Shown: positions 3,389 to 38,984 of the stretch, one piece after another | Layout of the letters: each line of letters starts with the position of its first letter | Position numbering within the stretch: the stretch's first letter is position 1 | NCBI GenBank assembly: GCA_030145625.1 | Contig: JAQYVF010000045.1 | Coordinates: 1 to 38,984, forward strand | Length of the DNA: 38,984 nt | Reading direction: 5' to 3' | DNA from: Desulfocapsa sp. | GTDB lineage: Bacteria; Desulfobacterota; Desulfobulbia; Desulfobulbales; Desulfocapsaceae | Translations under genes and position numbers: made by a program | Notes under the pieces: model-generated | Seen by the model: only the letters and a program-made list of their open reading frames with translations | What the model was told of the DNA's origin: nothing | Database searches by the model: none

Positions 3389-4483
3389 TCACTCCTTTTC
3401 TGTGAGCTCAGCGAGAAAATGTCTTCTCCAACCACTTCTTTGCTTGATCTGAGAAGAAGTGGAGGAAGCTTGTTTTACAAGCTCTCTCAGTTCACTTTTA
3501 TTGCCTACCAGGGTTGGATCGATCCCATGGACGTCACTTTTGAGAATAATAAAATCGTGGAGTTTGGTCAGAGCTGTTTTTTCTTTTTGATTCAGCTTGA
3601 TATTCTGCAACAGGGGAGGGCAGTCTTCTTCTGGTCGACTCAGTCCTTTTTGTACTAATTGGATCAAAACGTCGCCATAGGCATTTGCGCATCTGGTGGA
3701 TATGTCGTCGCAGTCCTGTATGGCTGATTTGTCCTGCATCTGTTGCCTGGCTATGCAGAGGAGGACAGTGTCGCGGATTATATGTCCCCTGGGGCGATTT
3801 CTTTTCCGTGCTTCTTTCTCTCTCCAGGATGCAAGTTCCTGAAGAGCGGCAAGGGCGTGGCGATTCAGTTTGCCTGCGCCTTTTATTTTGCGATAACGTG
3901 ACATGTCGCTTACGCCGATATAGCTTTCAGGGTCATTCAGCTTCTGGAGTTCTTCTTCCAGCCATTTTTCGGCATCCTGGATGGTACGGGCCAGGAGCAG
4001 GATACGCACTGCCCGAAGATAACGGACATCATCCATGGCATATTCTTTTTGCCGAGTGTGCAATGGACGTTTAAGCCAGTTCGTTCGAGTTTCTGTCTTT
4101 TCCAGTTTGATGTCGAGGAGGATCTCAACCAGGGCTGCCAAAGAGAGAGTGGATGAGAGGCCGGCAAAGCCTGCTGCAAGCCTGGTGTCGAAAACGTTTT
4201 TGGGATCAGCTCCTGTGGCATTGCGCAGGATGATGATATCTTGAGGGGCATCATGAAATATTTTGACAACTGCTGGGTCAGCGAGCAACTCTCCTAAAGG
4301 AGAAAGGTCATCTAACACGCAAGGATCGATGAGGAAACACTCCTCGTTGGAAAGAGCGAGCTGGATCAGTCCAAGACGGGGATAATAGGTCCGTTCCCAT
4401 ACAAATTCCGTGTCCAGGGCCACTGCATCAATTTTGCGTGCTCGTTCAACCAGAGCCTGGAGATCTTCTGCGTTATCAATCAT
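3389..4483 (-). CDS. rnd: Ribonuclease D
   Basis: 3'-5' exoribonuclease of the DEDDy group, acting in tRNA and stable-RNA 3' maturation. All exonuclease motifs are visible: D24 and E26 in ALDTEF (Exo I), D82 in HDAPQDI (Exo II), and Y148 and D152 in KEYAMDDVRYL (Exo III). The central and C-terminal part, from about residue 205, contains the helical region with ALAALQELASWREKEARKRNRPRGHIIRD, the HRDC-type domain of RNase D proteins. Its 364 residues match the family length of about 370. The start has an AGGAAG just upstream. It is divergent from the ABC permease genes and appears monocistronic. A second HRDC-like part near the C-terminus is only weakly recognisable. Confidence 0.92.
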   Translation of the reverse strand: MIDNAEDLQALVERARKIDAVALDTEFVWERTYYPRLGLIQLALSNEECFLIDPCVLDDLSPLGELLADPAVVKIFHDAPQDIIILRNATGADPKNVFDTRLAAGFAGLSSTLSLAALVEILLDIKLEKTETRTNWLKRPLHTRQKEYAMDDVRYLRAVRILLLARTIQDAEKWLEEELQKLNDPESYIGVSDMSRYRKIKGAGKLNRHALAALQELASWREKEARKRNRPRGHIIRDTVLLCIARQQMQDKSAIQDCDDISTRCANAYGDVLIQLVQKGLSRPEEDCPPLLQNIKLNQKEKTALTKLHDFIILKSDVHGIDPTLVGNKSELRELVKQASSTSSQIKQRSGWRRHFLAELTEKE

Positions 4484-4717
4484 TGCTTCCTGCTGTATGA
4501 AGAAGTTTCATTGGAGTACTTAAGTAATATTGTTTCTGAAACAAGACATATCAGTAAAAAAAATACAAGTAGTATTCGCATAATAGCTATTTGTTGCTGG
4601 GTTTTTTGTCTCCATGAAGTAATTTACTTGTTTTTTTATGACAATAAATTCATTATCAAATAATAATTCGAAGAGTTACTGTCTCTTGTTGACGTAGTTG
4701 CAGTCATTGAGGAAATA

Positions 4718-7642: not shown

Positions 7643-8048
7643 GTGAAAGAATTAAATAAAGGGTCCCTTGAAAAATTAGAATTTTCGTTCAAAATCGAGG
7701 CATGAGAAAAATTCCACAGCAGGTGCCCTGCAAGAATCACCCTAACTACGGGTACAAGTACCCTTGAGGTACATATATTTGATATTCCGAGGATAAAAAT
7801 TTTCTCATAACGAAGAGTTTGGGCGAAAAGGCAATTTTGCAAGGTGGCCTAAAGTTGTTTTGGTTACTGGGGCATCTTCGGGAATTGGTAAAGCCATTGC
7901 GCAGTTACTTTCTAAAACAAAATTGGCAAGTTTATGGGGTTGCCCGGTGACTGGAGGCGATGGAAGATCGGGCCGCTATCGGGATCAAAATATTGCCATT
8001 TGATTTTCCTGCTGATGCGTCGATTGTTGCCCGATTGGGCTTTTGATT
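7643..8048 (+). pseudogene. Short-chain dehydrogenase/reductase (SDR), disrupted and truncated
   Basis: The frame begins GTG-AAA-GAA-TTA-AAT-AAA at 7643-7660, is split by a 189-bp mobile element, and resumes at 7854 as VVLVTGASSGIGKAIAQLL. This is the NAD(P)-binding T-G-x3-G-x-G motif of SDR enzymes. Removing the element and one 4-bp duplication restores the reading frame exactly. Three further lesions are seen: an extra A in the run at 7914-7917 shifts the frame (the other frame continues as QNWQVYGVAR), a TGA at 7948-7950 replaces what looks like an arginine codon, and the gene stops after DASIVARLGF at about residue 75 where about 250 are expected. The catalytic Y-x3-K half is missing. The GTG start is inferred; its GGGGG-rich ribosome site is unusually close. 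Operator position suggests the gene was once the TetR target. Confidence 0.8.
7661..7849 (+). mobile_element. Fold-back MITE-like element, copy A (189 bp)
   Basis: A non-coding element with ends GGGTCCCTTGAAAAATT (left) and, read inwards from the right, GGCCACCTTGCAAAATT. It is flanked by a 4-bp direct duplication TAAA (7657-7660 and 7850-7853). The arms remain partly complementary for about 50 bp (left CATGAGAAAAATT pairs with AAATTTTCTCATA on the right), so the whole element can fold back on itself. This is the longest of three copies; it carries a central stretch of about 48 bp, including GGGTACAAGTACCC, that copy C lacks. It lies six codons into the SDR pseudogene. Confidence 0.8.
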
Positions 8049-8088
8049 GCATGATGAAAAAAACAGATTTCCAATTTGGCCAGGCAAA

Positions 8089-9276
8089 ATGTTTAAGACG
8101 ATAAAAAGAGGATTGACAATGATGATTTTATTATTGGTGCTGTTGCTCGGTTCGGGACTCTTGTTTGGAGCTTGCGCTCCGCAATTAGGGGCTGCGGGAG
8201 ACGATGACGGAAACCTGCGTTCGATAAACTTTCGCGACGGTAAGTTCCATAACTTGGTGAAAACCAGTGTCAGTACATCAACGAACGAGACCTTCAGGGC
8301 AATGATTGAATACTTTATTGGCAAGCAAAATCGTGAACCGGTAACGTTATTGCCTTCTGTACCTGTTTCGCTTGAGCAAATAGGCAAAAAAAACGATCTC
8401 CGAATTACTTGGTTGGGGCATTCGACTTGTCTCATTGAAATAGATGGACGGGTAATTCTCACCGATCCAATGTTCAGTGAACGTGCTTCTCCATTCTCTT
8501 TTATGGGACCGAAACGTTTTGCATCGGAAATACCGATTCAGGTGGAAGAACTGCCGCAGCTTGATGCAGTATTGATCTCGCATGATCATTACGACCACAT
8601 GGATTATCAGAGTATCCTGGCGTTGAAAGGTAAAGCGAAGCGTTTTTACGTCCCTTTAGGTGTTGCCGGTCACTTGCAGCGCTGGGGTATTCCATTGTTA
8701 CAGATCATTGAACTCGATTGGTGGGAACAAAGAACAAATGATGGACTTTCTTTTACTGCTACCCCGGCCAGGCATTTTTCTGGTCGTGGTTTCATCAGCA
8801 ATAAAACCCTCTGGGCCTCCTGGGTGATTAAGGGCAATCAGCAGCGTGTCTTTTTCAGTGGCGATTCCGGCTATTTCGGAGGTTTTGAAACGATAGGCGA
8901 AAAGTACGGACCTTTTGATGTGACCTTGCTCGAATCAGGTGCTTACAACAAGGCCTGGGCCGATATCCACATGACGCCGGAGCAGACGGTTCAGGCCCAT
9001 CTTGATCTAAAAGGAAAGATGTTACTGCCTATTCACTGGGGTAAATTTAACCTCTCTCTTCATTCCTGGACAGAACCGATTGAGCGACTTTTGGTCGCTG
9101 CAAAAAATCAAGGAGTTTTGGTGGTAACACCGATGCAAGGAGAAAATGTGGTGGCCACTAACCCGCAAACGGTAGAGCGTTGGTGGGGAAAGTCTCTCTA
9201 CAGCAAGCTAACCGCTGAAAATAACAAAACTACGTATACCGAGATCAAGGATGAGGCAACGTCGATTGAGAACTAA
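8089..9276 (+). CDS. MBL-fold metallo-hydrolase, lipoprotein (NAPE-PLD/UlaG-like)
   Basis: About 395 residues. The start at 8089 gives a positively charged n-region (MFKTIKRG), a hydrophobic core and a lipobox-like end LLFGAC with the lipid cysteine at residue 29, so it is probably a membrane-anchored lipoprotein. ATG 8119 has the better ribosome site (AGAGGA) but loses the basic n-region. The metal site is complete: H165-D-H-Y-D-H170, preceded by TWLGHSTCLIEIDGRVILTDPMF. FSGDSGYF and the later LLPIHWGKF histidine follow. This pattern is that of the N-acyl-phosphatidylethanolamine phospholipase D branch; the real substrate is unknown. It lies behind the broken SDR gene and the TetR operator, and was probably the second gene of that operon. 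Confidence 0.88.
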   Translation: MFKTIKRGLTMMILLLVLLLGSGLLFGACAPQLGAAGDDDGNLRSINFRDGKFHNLVKTSVSTSTNETFRAMIEYFIGKQNREPVTLLPSVPVSLEQIGKKNDLRITWLGHSTCLIEIDGRVILTDPMFSERASPFSFMGPKRFASEIPIQVEELPQLDAVLISHDHYDHMDYQSILALKGKAKRFYVPLGVAGHLQRWGIPLLQIIELDWWEQRTNDGLSFTATPARHFSGRGFISNKTLWASWVIKGNQQRVFFSGDSGYFGGFETIGEKYGPFDVTLLESGAYNKAWADIHMTPEQTVQAHLDLKGKMLLPIHWGKFNLSLHSWTEPIERLLVAAKNQGVLVVTPMQGENVVATNPQTVERWWGKSLYSKLTAENNKTTYTEIKDEATSIEN

Positions 9277-9634
9277 AGGCTGAAATCACAAGCCAATGGT
9301 GGATTCTATTCAATGATCCTATAGCTGATATGAAGTAGGATGATAACATGGCTAATGTTCTAGTTGCCAAATTGTCTGTCAAAGACAATGACATCAGACC
9401 TTGAGTTATCCATAAAGGAACTGAAAGGTTTGTTGGAAATGATGCCTTGTTATAGGCCACCTTGCAAAATTGCCTTTTCGCCCAAATTTTTCTCATGCCT
9501 CGATTTTGAACGAAAATTCTAATTTTTCAAGGTACCCTATAGTTACGTATCATATTGAATATTAAAAAAATGGAATTATGAGAGTTAGTTCGACCATAGA
9601 TTTTCAATATATAAAGTAAAAATGGAGAAAAGAA
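9277..9634. other. Intergenic region with mobile element copy B
   Basis: Apart from the element at 9455-9537, no gene was found. The part 9277-9454 has an open stretch on the plus strand (around 9379-9455) without a start or recognisable family. The part 9542-9634 is very AT-rich and probably holds the promoter of the barrel protein at 9635; an ATATTGA/TCAATAT inverted repeat spans it, but no clear -35/-10 pair is seen. Confidence 0.4.
9455..9537 (-). mobile_element. Fold-back MITE-like element, copy B (83 bp, internally deleted)
   Basis: The same element family in inverted orientation, flanked by its own 4-bp duplication TATA (9451-9454 and 9538-9541). Both ends are intact (GGCCACCTTGCAAAATT on the left, and the complement of GGGTACCTTGAAAAATT on the right). 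The centre present in copies A and C is gone: the arms join at GAGAAAAATTTGGGCG. It faces copy A across the MBL gene. Each copy has its own target duplication, which argues for two separate insertions rather than one composite transposon. Confidence 0.8.
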
Positions 9635-10609
9635 ATGAAAATTGTTTTGTCAGGTATATCAACGTTGTTTCTTGGCTGCACCTTGATGATGGCCGGAGCC
9701 TCAGCTGAGGAAATTAATAAGCTGGATGCAAGTGTGGGGCTTGGGATGATAGTTATCAACAGTGGTAATAATCTAAATACCAAGGGGTCCAATGAGTATC
9801 TGACAGATCTTGACTCTGCTGCAGACAAAGAATCGTATGTCATCCCTCTCATTTTGCCTAGTATTACCTATGATGTTGGAGAAACCGGTGGCCTAAAATT
9901 GTACCTAGATACAAAACCACCAATTGATGAAGTTGGTGGTTTTGCAATTAATATTGGCGGAAACTACCTTTATGAAGATATAGGAATCCTGGATGTCAAT
10001 GTGTTTTTTTCTCCCTTTGAAGAGGCATGGGAAAATCCATATGTTGTAGGAGTGTCCCGCACAACCACTTCTACTGCAAAGTATGGAGCAAAAGTGGCCT
10101 TTAATAGGATTTTTGGAACCGGATTGAGGACAAATTTTGTCTACATGAATGACGATGTGGACAGAGATGTGATTGGTGATTTAATTCCAGAGCTTGGGAG
10201 AGATGGAGAAGTTTATGCCTTAAATGTTAATTATAGTTTCTTTCCTTCAAAAAGACTGGAAATACGTCCACGGGCAGGTATCCGCAAAGGATTTTACGAT
10301 GGTGACAGCAACTCTTTTACTAAATACAAGATTGACCTGGAAGCCAGGTACAGAAGAGGGAAGTTGATGATTATACCACGTATCTTTTATAGCAGTAGCG
10401 AGTATGATGAGGTCAACCCAATCTTTAATGAGACCAGGGAAGATGATGGTTATGGTGTCAGTGTGAAGGGAAATTATATTGCCCCATTTAATTGGGAAGA
10501 TTGGTCAGTTCAGGGGCTTATCAATTATAGTATAGGGGAAAGTAACATTACTTTTTATGATACAGAAGGCATAAGTGCCGGTCTATTCATGTCCTATCAC
10601 TGGAACTAG
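9635..10609 (+). CDS. Outer-membrane beta-barrel protein, DUF2860-like
   Basis: 324 residues with a clear signal peptide (KIVLSGISTLFLGCTLMMAG, cleaved after A-S-A). The rest consists of amphipathic beta-strands rich in Y, F, G and N, ending with FMSYHWN, a C-terminal strand suited to outer-membrane insertion by the Bam machinery. The internal pattern PYVVGVSRTTTSTAKYG and YDEVNPIFNETREDDGYG resembles the DUF2860 outer-membrane family, so that assignment is from memory and moderate. A good ribosome site (GGAGAAAAGAA) precedes the start. It stands alone between the mobile element copy B and the Mla operon. Its function is unknown; porin-like or structural roles are possible. Confidence 0.75.
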   Translation: MKIVLSGISTLFLGCTLMMAGASAEEINKLDASVGLGMIVINSGNNLNTKGSNEYLTDLDSAADKESYVIPLILPSITYDVGETGGLKLYLDTKPPIDEVGGFAINIGGNYLYEDIGILDVNVFFSPFEEAWENPYVVGVSRTTTSTAKYGAKVAFNRIFGTGLRTNFVYMNDDVDRDVIGDLIPELGRDGEVYALNVNYSFFPSKRLEIRPRAGIRKGFYDGDSNSFTKYKIDLEARYRRGKLMIIPRIFYSSSEYDEVNPIFNETREDDGYGVSVKGNYIAPFNWEDWSVQGLINYSIGESNITFYDTEGISAGLFMSYHWN

Positions 10610-11360
10610 ATTGACGTGGTTTTTGACAAATTGTTTTTAAGTACATTTTATGTTGAGGTGTCTGTTCTCTATGTGTGTACAGAAGCATACACTGCTTGCG
10701 TAACTTTTCATATTTCTCTTTAACTTGTATTTAGATAACTTAAGTCTTTCAACCCTCCTTGAATCTTGCCAAACAAATGGCACTGTGGTAACCAAGCTAT
10801 CGCTACACACCCCTGGTTTGAGTAATTATGACTTAGATAAGTACTTCAATAAATGTTGGAACTGAACGAACAGGTAGTGTATGTGTAATTAATATGACAG
10901 GTTCAAACAGGGAGCTGGGGGGATATTGTTTTATCCCTTGGTATCCATGCAAGTTTCCAGGAAATTGAATGGAAAAATTCGTCACTGGTAGACCTTTTTC
11001 TTAACCGAATTGATTTTACTGTAAATTTATACTGTTATCAATCCGGCTAAGAATGTGGCGCGTTTTTGTGTTATTATGTCAAGGTTGTCTTGAATTTTGT
11101 GTTTTTTTGTTTGCAACTCTCGCTGAGTTGCTGAAATTTTAAACTCCAGTTAATAAGGCTCTCTTTTTTTGAATCGTCCTCAAACATTGACATTCTATAG
11201 TTCTAATTTTATCATGGAAATTAGTGGCTCTAATTTTTTCTGTTTTTCAGTGGCTAATTGAAAAATTGCTTGGTGAAAGAACGGAGTGCTTGTATGCATA
11301 ATTCCGGATAGCCAGTGGCAACGACAGCCGGATTCCTTATTATAGGTTGGTAAAAAGTAA
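10610..11360. other. Intergenic gap upstream of the Mla operon
   Basis: This AT-rich 751-bp region contains no convincing ORF. Visible structures are a hairpin GCAACTC-TCGCT-GAGTTGC (11113-11131), a GGGATA/TATCCC hairpin around 10920-10936, a GTGTA/TACAC hairpin near 10675-10694, and the Mla promoter at 11187-11215. No T-run terminator for the preceding barrel gene is evident. Confidence 0.5.
11187..11215 (+). promoter_or_regulatory. Sigma70-like promoter of the Mla operon
   Basis: A perfect TTGACA at 11187-11192, a 17-bp spacer, and TATCAT at 11210-11215. Transcription would begin near 11222, leaving an untranslated leader of about 140 bases before mlaE. No operator is recognised next to it. 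Confidence 0.65.
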
Positions 11361-12152
11361 ATGCTACAGAACTCCATAGCAAGACTGGGCAATACAGGCC
11401 TCTATGTGGTCAATGATCTTGGCCGTATGGGGCTTTACCTGTTACAGGCTGTCCGCGGGTGTTTCAGGCGCCCATTTCGTTTTGCTGAATTCCTTCGTCA
11501 ACTGCACTTTATCGGTGTTGGATCACTGGTCGTCATTTTTTTTACTGCTGCCTCCACAGGTATGGTGCTGGGTTTGCAAGGCTATTATTCCCTGCACAAG
11601 TTTGGTGCCGAAGGGATGCTGGGATCAGCTGTTTCACTCACCCTTATCATGGAACTTGGGCCTGTGCTTACCGCTTTGATGGTTGCCGGACGTGCCGGAT
11701 CAGCCATGTGCGCTGAACTTGGCATCATGAGGATCTCTGAACAGATTGATGCCTTGGATTGTATGGCCGTGGACCCTTTCCGTTATTTGATCTCTCCAAA
11801 ATTTCTTGCAGCCCTTATTTCGGTCCCTTTGCTCACCGCACTCTTTGATGTAGTTGGTATTGCCGGAGGATATCTGGCCGGGGTCAAACTGATGGGGGTT
11901 AATCCAGGCAGTTATTATGAAGGGATGCGTACCAGTGTCACCAATCACGATATCTGGATTGGCGTTGTCAAATCCTTTGTCTTTGGTTTGTTGGTCGTCT
12001 GGATTTGTACCGGTCGTGGGTATTTTGTTCATCAGATAAGGGGAGCCGGTTTCGGGGCACAGAGCGTGTCCAGAGTGACGACCCAGGCTGTGGTGCTGTC
12101 GTCGATTTCCGTGCTTATTTTTGATTATCTCCTCACCGCTGTCCTCCTATGA
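11361..12152 (+). CDS. mlaE: Phospholipid ABC transporter permease MlaE
   Basis: Inner-membrane permease of the Mla complex, which moves phospholipids between the inner and outer membranes to keep outer-membrane asymmetry. Its 263 residues match the family. Visible are the amphipathic N-terminal part, the helix region GSLVVIFFTAASTGMVLGLQGYYSL, the signature LGPVLTALMVAGRAGSAMCAELG with M-R-I-S-E-Q-I-D-A-L following (the coupling region), and the C-terminal FDYLLTAVLL. The stop overlaps the start of mlaF (ATGA), so translation is coupled. The ribosome site is weak (AGG about 14 bases upstream). First gene of the operon behind the promoter at 11187. Confidence 0.93.
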   Translation: MLQNSIARLGNTGLYVVNDLGRMGLYLLQAVRGCFRRPFRFAEFLRQLHFIGVGSLVVIFFTAASTGMVLGLQGYYSLHKFGAEGMLGSAVSLTLIMELGPVLTALMVAGRAGSAMCAELGIMRISEQIDALDCMAVDPFRYLISPKFLAALISVPLLTALFDVVGIAGGYLAGVKLMGVNPGSYYEGMRTSVTNHDIWIGVVKSFVFGLLVVWICTGRGYFVHQIRGAGFGAQSVSRVTTQAVVLSSISVLIFDYLLTAVLL

Positions 12153-12934
12153 ACGATATCGCCATAGAGTTTAAAAATGTAGAAAAGTCTTTTATCCGCG
12201 AAGATGGCCAAAAACAGGTCATTCTGGATAAAGTTAATTTTACTATTCCTGCTGGCAAAACTACAGTGATAGCAGGTGGTAGCGGTCAAGGCAAAAGTGT
12301 TACCTTAAAACTGGTGTTGGGATTGATGGAGGCTGACGGTGGTCAGATCTTTGTGGGCGGCAGGGAGAGCACCAGAAGTCGGGGACGTGAACTGGAAGAG
12401 TTGCGGACCCGTTTTGGAGTCCTTTTCCAAGGATCAGCCCTGTTTGATTCCCTGACGGTCTTTGAAAATGTAGCCTTGCCTCTCAGGGAACGTACCAAAA
12501 AGACGGAGAAGGAGATCAGAGATCAGGTGCTTTCCACTCTGGAGCAGTTGGAACTTCTGGGCCATGAAGAAAAATTCCCTGCTCAGCTGAGCGGTGGAAT
12601 GAAAAAACGGGCAGGTTTGGCCCGGGCTCTGCAGCTGAAACCTGAGATCATGCTCTTTGATGAACCAACCACTGGGCTTGATCCGGTAATGACCCAGGAA
12701 ATTTATCATCTTTTTGCCCGGACTCAGAAGCAGATCGGCTATACCTCTATAATTGTCAGTCACGATATTCCCAAAGTATTTAACCTCGCTGATCAGGTTA
12801 TCGTTCTTTATGACGGAGGGATGGATATTTTCACCTCTCCTGAAGCGATTCAGTGGTCACAGAAACCCCATATTAAAGAGTTTGTCAAAACCACTATGGG
12901 GGAAATTTATCAGAGTCACTTGGTGGAACAATGA
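12149..12934 (+). CDS. mlaF: Phospholipid ABC transporter ATP-binding protein MlaF
   Basis: Cytoplasmic ATPase subunit of the Mla transporter, 261 residues. The Walker A loop GGSGQGKS lies at residues 43-50, the Q-loop as FGVLFQGSALFDSLTVFENV, the ABC signature as LSGGMKKRAGLARAL, Walker B as IMLFDEPTTGLDP, and the switch histidine in SIIVSHDI. The order and the DSLTVFENVALPLRE wording are typical of MlaF. It overlaps mlaE and mlaD by four bases each (ATGA). MlaB, the STAS-domain partner found in enterobacteria, is not encoded in this operon. Confidence 0.94.
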   Translation: MNDIAIEFKNVEKSFIREDGQKQVILDKVNFTIPAGKTTVIAGGSGQGKSVTLKLVLGLMEADGGQIFVGGRESTRSRGRELEELRTRFGVLFQGSALFDSLTVFENVALPLRERTKKTEKEIRDQVLSTLEQLELLGHEEKFPAQLSGGMKKRAGLARALQLKPEIMLFDEPTTGLDPVMTQEIYHLFARTQKQIGYTSIIVSHDIPKVFNLADQVIVLYDGGMDIFTSPEAIQWSQKPHIKEFVKTTMGEIYQSHLVEQ

Positions 12935-13380
12935 AAAACAGCAGTATACAATTCTGGGTTGGAATTTTTATGATTGCCGGATTTGTTGCCTTTGGTTATC
13001 TGGCCCTGCAACTGGGTGAGGTTTCGTTTTTGAGCAGCAGTAAAAGCTACACCATTACTGCCCAGTTTGATAATATCTCCGGAATAAAAAAAGGTGCCTC
13101 GGTGCAGATTGCCGGAGTGGTGATAGGGGAAGCCTCCAGGATCTGGCTTGACGATGATGGGGTTGCTAATGTTTTTTTGCTGATAAATAAGGAAGTTCAG
13201 CTGAACGTTGATTCCATGGCCTCGATCAAATCACAGGGGCTGATCGGGGATAAGTATATTCAGTTGAGTTTGGGTGGGGATGAAGAGTTCTTCCAGGAAG
13301 GTGATGTCTTGACCGATACCGAATCGGCAGTGGATCTCGAATCTCTCATCAGTAAGTTTGCTTTTGGCAGTGTGAAATAA
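12931..13380 (+). CDS. mlaD: MlaD/MCE domain lipid-transport protein
   Basis: Periplasmic substrate-binding subunit anchored by one N-terminal helix (QFWVGIFMIAGFVAFGYLAL). A single MCE domain follows: YTITAQFDNISGIKKGASVQIAGVVIGEA and, later, SIKSQGLIGDKYIQLSLGG, the conserved end of the MCE fold. At 149 residues it is a short MlaD; enterobacterial MlaD has about 180, so the C-terminal tail that helps hexamer formation is reduced here. It overlaps mlaF by four bases and is followed by mlaA after 28 bases. Confidence 0.93.
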   Translation: MKNSSIQFWVGIFMIAGFVAFGYLALQLGEVSFLSSSKSYTITAQFDNISGIKKGASVQIAGVVIGEASRIWLDDDGVANVFLLINKEVQLNVDSMASIKSQGLIGDKYIQLSLGGDEEFFQEGDVLTDTESAVDLESLISKFAFGSVK

Positions 13381-13408
13381 TTTTGAGTAGCTCAGGACTC
13401 TTCCTGAT

Positions 13409-14242
13409 ATGTTGATAACCATGAGATACACTATTCTTTTTTTGACGGGAATTTTTCTGTTGGCTTCTCTGGGTTGTGCCCAGCGCCAATCTGCCACCAG
13501 TGTGCCGGACACATCGCTGGAAGCGGCTCAAGGGCAAGATGAAGAGTTTGACCTGCTCAGTGACGATTTTTTTAGTGATGCCCCCTCCTCTGTCCATGAG
13601 CCGGTATATTACGATCCTCTTGAACCCATGAACAGGATCTTTTTCGAATTTAACGATAAACTCTATTATTGGGTGTTGAAACCTGTGAATACGGCATACA
13701 GTGCCGTTGTGCCGGTAGATTTTCGTTATTGTTTCGGTAATTTTTTCACTAACCTGTCTGCCCCTATTCGGCTTTTAAACAATCTGTTGCAAGGGAAATT
13801 CAGTGATGCTGGGATAGTGCTCTCTCGTTTTCTCATTAATTCCACACTCGGTGTGTATGGATTGGGGGATCCGGCTCTTGTGGATTTCGATCTGGAACCA
13901 AAACCCGAAGATTTTGGTCAGACCCTTGGTGCCTGGGGGGTGGGGGAGGGAATCTATCTCTGCTGGCCTATTCTCGGACCGTCTAATGCGCGAGATACCC
14001 TTGGATTTGGTGTGGATGTCTACTCGCATCCTGTGGTCTATTTAAACGATGATCTTCTGGTTAGTGCGGCCTATTATTCCGGGAATAAGGTTAATCTGCT
14101 CTCTCTCAACCCGGAAGCCTACGATGATCTGAAAAAATATTCTTTGGATCCTTATGTCTCCATGCGCCAGGTTTATCTCGATTACAGGAGAAACAAGATT
14201 AAGGATAAAGCCGCAAAACAGAATGTTGTTGATGAACTGTAG
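13409..14242 (+). CDS. mlaA: Outer-membrane lipoprotein MlaA (VacJ)
   Basis: A lipoprotein that removes misplaced phospholipids from the outer leaflet and passes them to MlaC. 277 residues. The signal peptide ends in the lipobox LASLGC. The VacJ core is clear: DPLEPMNRIFFEFNDKLY, then the donut-forming helices with LSAPIRLLNNLLQGKF and RFLINSTLGVYGLGDPA, and DFGQTLGAWGVGEGIYLCWP, all family signatures. ATG 13409 was chosen for an AGGA 11 bases upstream; ATG 13421 is possible. The stop codon is TAG at 14240-14242, and its G is the first base of mobile element copy C; without the element the stop would be TAA. Confidence 0.93.
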   Translation: MLITMRYTILFLTGIFLLASLGCAQRQSATSVPDTSLEAAQGQDEEFDLLSDDFFSDAPSSVHEPVYYDPLEPMNRIFFEFNDKLYYWVLKPVNTAYSAVVPVDFRYCFGNFFTNLSAPIRLLNNLLQGKFSDAGIVLSRFLINSTLGVYGLGDPALVDFDLEPKPEDFGQTLGAWGVGEGIYLCWPILGPSNARDTLGFGVDVYSHPVVYLNDDLLVSAAYYSGNKVNLLSLNPEAYDDLKKYSLDPYVSMRQVYLDYRRNKIKDKAAKQNVVDEL

Positions 14243-14382
14243 GGTACCTTGAAAAATTAGAATTTTTGTTCAAAATCGAGGCATGAGAGAAATTTCACCG
14301 CAGGCATATATTTGATATTCCAAGGATGAAATTTTTTTCATAACGAAGAGTTTGGGCGAAAAGGCAATTTTGCAAGGTGGCC
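14242..14382 (+). mobile_element. Fold-back MITE-like element, copy C (141 bp) in the Mla operon
   Basis: The element runs from GGGTACCTTGAAAAATT to the complement of GGCCACCTTGCAAAATT, flanked by a 4-bp duplication TGTA (14238-14241 and 14383-14386). It lacks the central ~48 bp of copy A but has both complementary arms. It entered the gap between mlaA and mlaC, which would have been 27 bases. Excision would leave mlaA with a TAA stop at the same codon. On the transcript it would form a long hairpin between two operon genes. Confidence 0.82.
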
Positions 14383-14414
14383 TGTAATTTAATTCTAGCA
14401 ATGAGGTTTACGCG

Positions 14415-37168: not shown

Positions 37169-38984
37169 GTGACCCAGCATAGTGAAAATCAATATGATGA
37201 TGATCTGACCGTTGGCATGGATGATAATGATTCCTTTTCCACGGACTCTGTCAATCTGTTTGAATTTACCGGTGATGATGACTCGCCCATTGCCCGGTTG
37301 AAAACTATCATTCTCTCCATTGACTGGGAGATAAATGACGATATTCTCCAGCAGCTTGAGGAGGAACTCCTGGACCTTAATGAAATCTGGTCCGGTGATA
37401 AAATCAAACAGGTTTATATCCAGGGTCTGGATAAAATTGGGAAGTATATCTTTAAGGAAAGGGCCAAAGCTCATCCCAATGCTATTAAATTACTTCTTAC
37501 ATTTTACTATAATCTGGAAAAAATTGTTTCTTCTGAAGAGATGATGAGTGAAGAGGAGAAGAAAAAAATCCTCCTTGAAGATGTTAAAAAATTTGATCAG
37601 TTAAAAGTACAGATTAGTAAATCCAGTGCGTCATCGCCCCCCCCTAAAGCTGTTGGTTCTGAATCGTTTGCAACAGGGACACAAAGTGAGCAAGATAGCG
37701 AGAATGTTCTTAAGACTCTTAAGGCACAGGTGCTTGGAATTGACTGGGAGATCAACGACAAGGAACTGCAAAAACTGGGTGAGGAGGTTAGGCGCCTGGA
37801 AGGGGTGTTCAGCCAGAGTAAAGCCAAACTGATTCTGTTACAGGGAATTGGTGCGCTCAGTTCTTACATTAATAAAATGCGAAGTCAGTCCAACTCCAAT
37901 GCTTTTACCCTTCTTCACTCGTTTTATGGAGCTTTGGAAAAAACCAGTCTTTCTGAACTTTCAGGAGATGAGGAAAAAAAGATTCTTCTCACTGAAGTTG
38001 CTAAATTTAACGAATTTAAGGCAGAGATTTCAAAAGAGAAGTCTGAATCGCCTGCAGTAGTAGGTGATGCAACATCTGGTGTTGGTCAAGGTGAACCGGC
38101 ATTGGCTACCAAAGGCCCTGCTCAAGCTTTTCAATCCGAGGAGGATACTGAAATTCCTGAGCAAGATGAAGATGAGAATAAAGTCGCTTCTGATGTTGAA
38201 TCTCGACTGGCATCAGTTTTTGGAGATATTGATGAAGAACAGGTGCTCGATAGTTCGGATGAGAGTGTTCTGGCTGGGGTGAACGTTGAAACTGATGCCG
38301 ACGATGATTCTGATGAAGAGGCATTACCCTATGAAGGAGGCACTGTTGCACCGGCTCTGGCTGATGTTGAAGAGGAGAGTAGTTTTAGTGTAGACAGCTT
38401 GGCCAAAGAGTTGGCTGCTGCAAGTGAAGACCAAGAGCAACAAGCAAAAGGTGGTGTTACGCCGGGTATAGATGTGGAAACCGAGGCGGATGATGATTCA
38501 GATGAGGAAGCTCTTCCCATGAGTGATGGAGAGTTGGCACCTGCCTTATCTGGTGGTGAAGAGGACCTCGCTTTTGATGAATCTTCGATGGATAATGAAT
38601 TTGAGGAAACTGAATCTACTGATTTAGAGAATAGGTTAGATTCGTTTTTTGGTGACGCAATAGAATCGTCCTCTGATGACTGGGACTCGGAAGAAGAACA
38701 TGCTTTCTCGACGGAAGAAGAGGTGTCTGCCGGGTTGTCCTTCCTGGATGAAGAGAGCGAAGAACAAGCCGTAGCTGAAGAGTTAGAGCCTGAAGAAGAG
38801 GTAGCAGCCGGACTGTCCTTCCTGGATGAAGAAGTTTCTGCGCCAGTAGTTGTTGAAGAGGGCGAAGAACAAGCCGTAGCTGAAGAGTTAGAGCCTGAAG
38901 AAGAGGTAGCAGCCGGACTGTCCTTCCTGGATGAAGAAGTTCCTGCACCGGTCGTTGAAGAGAGCGAAGAACAAGCCGTAGCTG
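37169..38984 (+). CDS. Large acidic protein with duplicated helical domain and Glu-rich repeats, C-terminus off the window
   Basis: Partial: 605 codons are open to the right edge without a stop. GTG start at 37169 with AGGGA eight bases upstream, 11 bases after mglA, so same operon. Two copies of a roughly 105-residue domain are visible: residues about 43-150 and 184-288, each beginning with an L-K-x-x-x-L/I-x-I-D-W-E-I-N motif (D52-W-E-I-N and D192-W-E-I-N), followed by leucine-rich amphipathic helices, an FY-x-x-L-E-K stretch and EEEKKKILL/DEEKKILL. After residue 290 the chain is strongly acidic and probably disordered, with paired units VESRLASVFGD/LENRLDSFFGD and VETDADDDSDEEALP/VETEADDDSDEEALP, then the 34-35 residue tandem repeats. 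No catalytic motif, signal or membrane segment is seen. No family name is recognised; it could be an MglA effector or scaffold. Confidence 0.82.
   Translation, partial: MTQHSENQYDDDLTVGMDDNDSFSTDSVNLFEFTGDDDSPIARLKTIILSIDWEINDDILQQLEEELLDLNEIWSGDKIKQVYIQGLDKIGKYIFKERAKAHPNAIKLLLTFYYNLEKIVSSEEMMSEEEKKKILLEDVKKFDQLKVQISKSSASSPPPKAVGSESFATGTQSEQDSENVLKTLKAQVLGIDWEINDKELQKLGEEVRRLEGVFSQSKAKLILLQGIGALSSYINKMRSQSNSNAFTLLHSFYGALEKTSLSELSGDEEKKILLTEVAKFNEFKAEISKEKSESPAVVGDATSGVGQGEPALATKGPAQAFQSEEDTEIPEQDEDENKVASDVESRLASVFGDIDEEQVLDSSDESVLAGVNVETDADDDSDEEALPYEGGTVAPALADVEEESSFSVDSLAKELAAASEDQEQQAKGGVTPGIDVETEADDDSDEEALPMSDGELAPALSGGEEDLAFDESSMDNEFEETESTDLENRLDSFFGDAIESSSDDWDSEEEHAFSTEEEVSAGLSFLDEESEEQAVAEELEPEEEVAAGLSFLDEEVSAPVVVEEGEEQAVAEELEPEEEVAAGLSFLDEEVPAPVVEESEEQAVA
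38714..38984 (+). repeat. In-frame tandem repeat, 34-35 codon unit
   Basis: Units of EEEVxAGLSFLDEE followed by SEEQAVAEELEPE occur three times or more. An 80-bp stretch (38757-38836) is identical to 38862-38941 at a distance of 105 bp; the next unit follows at 102 bp and is cut by the window end. Near-identity at DNA level shows recent copying by slippage or recombination. Copy number beyond the edge is unknown. Confidence 0.85.

Follow-up and report, generated by a model that had tools for sequence, protein, structure and literature searches.

A newly recognised family of fold-back elements with IS5-type ends, abundant in a Desulfocapsa genome and spread over the order Desulfobulbales

We analyzed a stretch of DNA of 38,984 nucleotides from Desulfocapsa sp. 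(contig JAQYVF010000045.1 of assembly GCA_030145625.1), hereafter called the window, and three short repeats in it, which we call copies A, B and C. Our analysis indicates that these repeats are very probably non-autonomous, fold-back copies of a miniature inverted-repeat transposable element (MITE), moved by cut and paste by an IS5-family DDE transposase that is encoded elsewhere. The family is a newly recognised MITE family of a known type, with IS5-type ends. It adds an abundant MITE family across an order of sulfur bacteria to the known repertoire.

Three elements in the window

The initial annotation described three elements with shared ends, of which copy B is inverted, and its coordinates, its sizes and the C in place of A at position 5 of copy A all proved to be exact. 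The perfect 4-bp duplications TAAA, TATA and TGTA were also present at copies A, B and C as claimed. The features are as follows; the duplications were read in the sequence.

7661..7849, plus strand: copy A, of the 189-bp class, read as the 141-bp element with a 48-bp apical insert (32 of 60 parsed host copies are 188-191 bp)
7724..7771, plus strand: 48-bp segment in copy A that is absent from copy C, delimited by the repeat boundaries of A against C
7657..7660, no strand: target duplication TAAA, left of copy A
7850..7853, no strand: target duplication TAAA, right of copy A
9455..9537, minus strand: copy B, 83 bp, inverted, a probable internal-deletion derivative (the only 83-bp copy among the 60 parsed)
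9451..9454, no strand: target duplication TATA, left of copy B
9538..9541, no strand: target duplication TATA, right of copy B
14242..14382, plus strand: copy C, 141 bp, the common form in relatives judging by the sizes of their copies
14238..14241, no strand: target duplication TGTA, left of copy C
14383..14386, no strand: target duplication TGTA, right of copy C

A repeat search paired copies A and C over 73 and 79 bases (7651-7723 and 7772-7850 against 14232-14304 and 14305-14383), and it paired copy B with both A and C as inverted repeats. Copy B consists of the first 54 and the last 29 bases of the element joined together. Copy C lies in a stop codon. That is, the TGTA duplication and the first G of copy C form the TAG that ends the open reading frame (ORF) at 13409-14242, and when this ORF is read directly from the sequence without copy C, a TAA stands at the same place.

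The claim that each element folds back on itself was borne out when the copies were folded as single-stranded DNA and compared with dinucleotide shuffles. Each was more stable than its shuffles, with z values of -4.25 for copy A (a stability reached by 0 of 200 shuffles), -2.66 for copy B (2 of 200) and -3.81 for copy C (0 of 200). A known Rfam RNA was rejected as an explanation, because the window gave 0 Rfam matches at the gathering score.

Abundance, sizes and target duplications in the host genome

The element carries a 17-bp tip at both ends, GG(G/C)(T/C)ACCTTG(A/C)AAAATT. In the host genome (G000; 4.98 Mb in 229 contigs, of which the window is contig C217), the 17-base left tip gave 226 matches at no more than 2 mismatches, a few of which could instead be right tips that have A at position 11, against 1 match for the reversed-pattern control. 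The number of copies given in the initial annotation, three, is true only inside the window. A BLAST search of the genome with copy A gave 231 candidates, and when 40 of these were scored, all 40 matched.

Copies were parsed from the window and from the first 60 loci, which are a non-random sample of the 30 best BLAST matches and 30 exact-tip matches. Pairs were excluded if they exceeded 250 bp or had over 3 mismatches in the tips, as were reverse readings, which left 60 distinct copies. Their sizes were 188-191 bp in 32 copies, 140-142 bp in 21, 167-168 bp in two, 36 bp in three, 83 bp in one (copy B) and 245 bp in one. The range of 36-245 bp leaves no room for a transposase gene.

Among the 59 copies with both flanks, 47 had a perfect 4-bp duplication and 5 more had a duplication with one mismatch. 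When the flanks were paired at random in 2000 shuffles, the mean number of perfect duplications was 3.9 and the maximum was 13. A chance repeat was rejected on the grounds of these values and of the tip counts, and segmental duplication was rejected because the duplications are bounded by the element. The target sites had the palindromic consensus AC-TWWA-GT, of which the central four bases are duplicated; it was derived from 80 sites (48 in G000 and 32 in relatives), all chosen for having duplications.

These results support the view that the window holds a MITE-like fold-back family with 4-bp duplications. The copies in G000 are short, numerous, bounded by terminal inverted repeats, free of a transposase gene and flanked by duplications of fixed length, and another feature of a MITE, an autonomous partner with the same ends, was not found in the 229-contig assembly of G000.

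Two host contigs (loci L012 and L056) begin with identical 93 bases beside copies of 189 and 141 bp, and their right flanks differ. Such an arrangement would be expected from recombination between copies or from a break in the assembly.

IS5-type ends and the search for a transposase

We searched seven tip-bearing genomes for DDE_Tnp_1, which gave 62 places, and 30 loci of these were scanned for ends. An insertion sequence (IS) in G002, a genome of the host's genus, has the ends GGGTTCCTTGAAAAAT and GGGAACCTTGAAAAGT. IS copies at contig ends in G095 carry GGGAACCTTGAAAATT and GGGTTCCTTGAAAATT, and an IS in G129 has one open transposase gene between the ends GGGTTCTTTGCAAAAT and GGCTACTTTGAAAAATT. 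The transposases P0002 of G129 and P0003 of G095, the latter truncated, exceeded the NCBIfam IS5_4 cut-off of 140 bits with scores of 257 and 214, and both carry Pfam DDE_Tnp_1 and DUF772.

A contig of the viral collection (L372) contains an intact IS of 1317 bp with the duplication TTTA at both sides. In addition, five ISs on alphaproteobacterial plasmids (L373-L377), chosen from the best 25 matches, encode transposases about 50% identical to P0002 and have left ends at or near GGGCACCTCGAAAAATT. All five have perfect 4-bp duplications (TGCG, TAAA, AATC, TTAC and CTTA), and they are not five independent cases because three come from Sulfitobacter or Pseudosulfitobacter. The inverted repeats of L374 were missed at the first threshold and found by a looser test.

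The tip of the window elements agreed at 15 of 17 bases with the left end of the IS in G002 and with those of two IS5 copies from alphaproteobacteria, and at 13-14 of 17 with the L372 and G095 ISs. In terms of their sequence, then, the tips are IS5-family-type ends, where the initial annotation could assign no known family. Among the eight ISs with both ends, 4-bp duplications were found in six (L372 and L373-L377). According to Table 2 of PMC3281130, ISPmar3 (1282 bp) and ISPha2 (1387 bp) of the IS5 group in the IS5 family have direct repeats of 4 bp; we liken these two to the present elements by the repeat length, and not by their tips. The IS5_4-type ISs that we found have GGG..ACCT(T/C)GAAAAATT-like ends together with 4-bp duplications. 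We assign the ends to the IS5 type because IS5-family ISs have similar tips and 4-bp duplications. The elements share the ends and the duplications of the IS5 group and differ from it in having no transposase and a body that is not recognisably IS-derived, since no significant likeness to the G129 IS was found beyond the tip.

From these likenesses, the mechanism would be as follows. An IS5-family DDE transposase encoded elsewhere would bind the 17-bp tip at both ends of the element, excise the element and reinsert it at AT-rich sites (consensus ACTWWAGT), and a 4-bp staggered cut would yield the target duplication. It is thus an IS5-type transposase that we infer to have moved these copies.

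Several observations weigh against this assignment. The perfect duplication is absent in 12 of the 59 copies in G000. The IS copies in G129 and G002 have no duplications, the transposase gene of G002 is split over two frames, and comparison of the inner 63 bp of each MITE end with the G129 IS gave p values of 0.13-0.76 (1000 shuffles). One published member of the IS5 group, ISPhae1, has direct repeats of 6 bp (PMC3281130, Table 2). G000 gave 4 DDE_Tnp_1 matches, none of which is bounded by the tips in this 229-contig assembly, which may lack collapsed ISs, and none is similar to the G129 transposase at 1e-8. In addition, an IS in which the exact tips go together with a 4-bp duplication and an intact transposase, the partner that the initial annotation proposed to look for, was not found over the order in a search of 257 genomes, with 395 genomes of the phylum covered less thoroughly.

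The details of this search were as follows. Unusual tips were present at 57 places in 28 of the 257 order genomes, the host included. Scanning of 30 of these loci, of 15 of the other 27 places and of one longer stretch gave no exact-tip IS. Translations were read by eye, without a domain search, at 9 and 8 of the unusual-tip loci, and no transposase was recognised there; these loci held short elements, truncated tips or host genes. In the phylum, 23 of the 395 genomes had matches, of which the matched letters were read and the loci covered in part. A search of viral contigs with P0002 for the exact-tip partner obtained no relative. An IS1595-like fragment, recognised by eye in L121, was considered as a partner and rejected, as the copies flanking it were read as separate insertions. 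These two copies, of 143 bp, inverted with respect to each other (3467-3609 and 4422-4564), are 99.3% identical, and the second has a TTTT duplication.

Mobilisation in trans is suggested because the search of the host genome yielded no transposase of this kind, and mobilisation by the IS5 group therefore rests on the tip and the duplication. The earlier proposal of movement in trans, by a transposase from outside the window, is probably correct.

Which size is the standard form

The initial annotation took the three sizes as a nested series of deletions from copy A. Of the relatives' copies with duplications (n=32), however, 24 measure 140-143 bp and the 189-bp size is absent, so that copy C probably did not arise from copy A by deletion. 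A 190-bp copy in L091, a relative, has a middle unrelated to that of copy A. Bases 1-63 and 112-189 of copy A match side by side in the same-genus genomes G002, G007 and G012 (for example, C74:14517-14579 followed by C74:14580-14656 in G002), and the matches listed for other genera start near base 112 of copy A. The 48-bp segment itself was found in 1 of 280 loci from other genomes, namely L062, which belongs to the same genus as the host. Forms of 166-168 bp also occur within this genus.

Because the 189-bp size is missing from the relatives' copies and the 48-bp segment is found at so few loci elsewhere, we regard copy A as copy C with 48 bp added. The best reading is that 141 bp is the common form and that 7724-7771 is an added segment, seen in no genus but that of the host; the 189-bp form would have arisen from the 141-bp form by this gain. 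What remains of the nested series is copy B, which as the sole 83-bp copy among 60 looks like a later, private deletion.

Pairing along the fold-back and placement relative to genes

An unlikely alternative, which has several findings in its favor, is that the family is chiefly a structural repeat that is transcribed, as with ERIC or REP, and kept by the host as an RNA or DNA hairpin acting through its folded body, and that transposition explains only its past spread. We aligned 30 distinct copies, and 90.9% of the cells were paired when the fold of copy C was applied to them. Pairing is maintained along the entire fold-back and across genera, with changes on both sides in 20 of 54 pairs; a sliding partner gives at most 11 such pairs. 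The doubly changed cells numbered 78 against 26.6 in shuffles, and none of 500 shuffles reached any of five measures; these values come from related rows and from a structure taken from one aligned row (copy C). Columns 42-102 are AU in 16 rows and GC in 12, and columns 43-101 are UA in 17 and CG in 11. At the tip columns 2-142 and 5-139, the double changes track which type of tip a copy carries. End recognition does not account for those at 42-102 and 43-101, which lie well inside the tips. Template switching between the arms of an imperfect palindrome can keep the pairing without selection, which weakens the argument for a structure kept by the host.

The placement of the copies was analyzed in a sample of 438,984 bp, composed of 20 stretches and the window, from large contigs already known to carry copies. 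The sample holds 27 matches, of which 24 are at least 75 bp. None of the 24 falls inside the crude ORF calls, which together cover 82% of the sample sequence. This result is partly circular because the stop codons of the element would cut any gene that it entered. We therefore joined the flanks and tested the empty site for a spanning ORF. At 22 of the 24 joined sites there was no spanning ORF of 100 amino acids, and 760 of 1050 random points lay inside one. For seven of the 24 copies, the stop end of an ORF is no more than 2 bp away.

The position of 22 of 24 copies between reading frames is in accord with the MITE as well as with a structural repeat, but the copies vary in size and lie in all orientations of the flanking genes (10 --, 8 ++, 3 -+ and 3 +-), and the window has no Rfam match. 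We prefer the explanation by an IS5-type MITE. The kept pairing of the non-terminal stem makes a host role of the hairpins testable.

At one locus of the host genome (L283, G000:C139:17000-21000), positions 772-1615 hold a gene that resembles PhnA by eye, with a left tip on one side and a degenerate right tip on the other. The tips are 844 bp apart and flanked by TATA and TAAA. It is possible that a host gene was captured between element ends.

Tip-only palindromes

Pairs of tips 20-70 bp apart were found 27 times among the loci examined, some of them by chance. Palindromes of 33-37 bp, which contain little beyond the two tips, accounted for 17, a number that is not a measure of their share in the family, as searches favoring unusual inner sequence enriched them. 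Five of the 17 are in G000, and 14 have perfect 4-bp duplications. Deletion between the AATTTT repeats near both ends yields exactly the 36-bp copy of L058 in G000, and it yields the 36-bp copy of L292 except for one base, so that deletion after insertion is the simpler explanation at these two loci. The other palindromes of this class have varied centres that such a deletion does not explain, and they may be mobile as units.

A 35-base element listed for G095 is identical, together with its flank, in L077, so that G095 is probably Desulfogranum mediterraneum. Two-tip palindromes of only 23-24 bases, below this class, were seen at G196:C12:215461 and G196:C18:17507. In L295 (G196:C18), positions 1227-1281 hold three right-type tips in tandem with 19-bp spacing; they lie at one end of an element that has a 4-bp duplication.

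Spread in related genomes and a second tip type

Matches to the family, obtained with copy A, were present in 26 of 35 related genomes (27 of 36 with the host), and the tip pattern was seen, among the matches listed, in Desulfogranum, Desulfofustis, Desulfocapsa, Desulforhopalus and Desulfobulbus records. The family is spread over the order Desulfobulbales. Carriage by plasmids or phages was rejected, since copy A had no blastn match in the plasmid collection or the viral collection.

Some copies in the genomes G021 and G034 share the body of the window elements but end in GAGCC(T/A)(T/C)TTGCAAAA. We compared the bodies across tip types in an alignment of 31 chosen copies. The identity of the body to copy A was 83-86% over about 77 bases in G021 and 89% over 62 bases in G034. 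G021 gave 115 matches to the GAGCC tip with a preceding T. Thirteen parsed copies from the two genomes, including L194 with its different body, had seven perfect 4-bp duplications and one of 5 bp. The element in L194 (G034:C287, 662-791) is 130 bp long and represents a second MITE on the same ends.

GAGCC ends also bound ISs of about 1.2-1.5 kb, whose transposase, P0001, has DUF772 and DDE_Tnp_1. Its best match was NCBIfam IS1182, at 85.6 bits against a cut-off of 270, and it shares 39% identity with P0002 over 85 residues (E 4e-6). At four loci (L324, L325, L329 and L333), the only pieces of a P0001-type gene found beside a GAGCC tip were its first part, its last part or both of these, and the P0001-type IS group seems to give rise to deletion derivatives as well.

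A broader proposal is that a single body crossed the whole order while switching, at both ends together, between GG..ACCTTG tips (IS5-type) and GAGCC..CTTG tips (IS1182/IS5-like), with the whole stem kept by selection and the 33-37-bp palindromes mobile. As a whole we hold this to be doubtful. If it were true, these palindromes would rank among the smallest transposing units known. The family in any case offers material for the questions of how a MITE spreads when its transposase is absent or changed and of the minimum length of a DDE element.

It is also conceivable, though improbable, that the GG-tip elements were moved on diverged ends by the P0001-type IS1182/IS5-like transposase of the GAGCCTCTTGCAAAA ISs. 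The occurrence of the same MITE body with GAGCC tips in G021 and G034, the 4-bp duplications in 5 of 9 distinct P0001-type IS copies with both ends, and the remnants of such ISs in the host's genus (G007, G011, G019 and G001) are all consistent with this explanation. However, the right tip differs from the tip of these ISs at positions 2, 3, 5 and 6 of its first 15 bases, the IS5-type tips are closer with up to 15 of 17 bases, and no relative of P0001 was found in G000 or G021. At 18 loci with diverged P0001-like remnants, GAGCC tips were found at 8 and the GG..ACCTTG tip at none. We keep to an IS5-type transposase as the probable agent.

The last explanation, that the copies are not mobile elements but arose from an intergenic hairpin by recombination or segmental duplication, would suit the 93 bases shared by the contig ends of L012 and L056 beside copies of different size and the 12 of 59 copies without a perfect duplication, but it is contradicted by element-bounded duplications in 47 of 59 copies at unrelated sites and by the palindromic consensus common to the targets, and we consider it highly improbable.

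Comparison with known repeat families

REP/REPIN sequences, which depend on RAYT, a Y1 transposase, are not known to have target duplications. They resemble the present elements in being small, palindromic, abundant and extragenic, and the duplications at 47 of 59 copies set the present family apart from them. The duplications of Correia and ERIC are of the TA type. The present family is unlike Correia, ERIC and QMITE2 in its different ends, its 4-bp duplications and the second tip type on the same body. All are abundant fold-back repeats; in its passages on these elements, the review PMC10969869 gives more than 120 copies for Correia, up to 711 for ERIC, and duplications of 7-9 bp for QMITE2. 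The same source describes the Chunjie MITE of Geobacter uraniireducens, with a full length of 235 bp, 37 more copies of 178-235 bp and 57 partial copies. By that description, Chunjie is likewise an intergenic MITE with many copies and size variants, whereas the present family is order-wide with a common size of 141 bp.

We found no description of the family in the open-licence literature searched, and in the genome paper of Desulfocapsa sulfexigens (PMC3739170) the term "transpos" is absent from the main text.

At the end of the contig, tandem repeats of about 104-105 bp occupy positions 38714-38984 of the window and run into the contig end, and they possibly code for a repeat protein.

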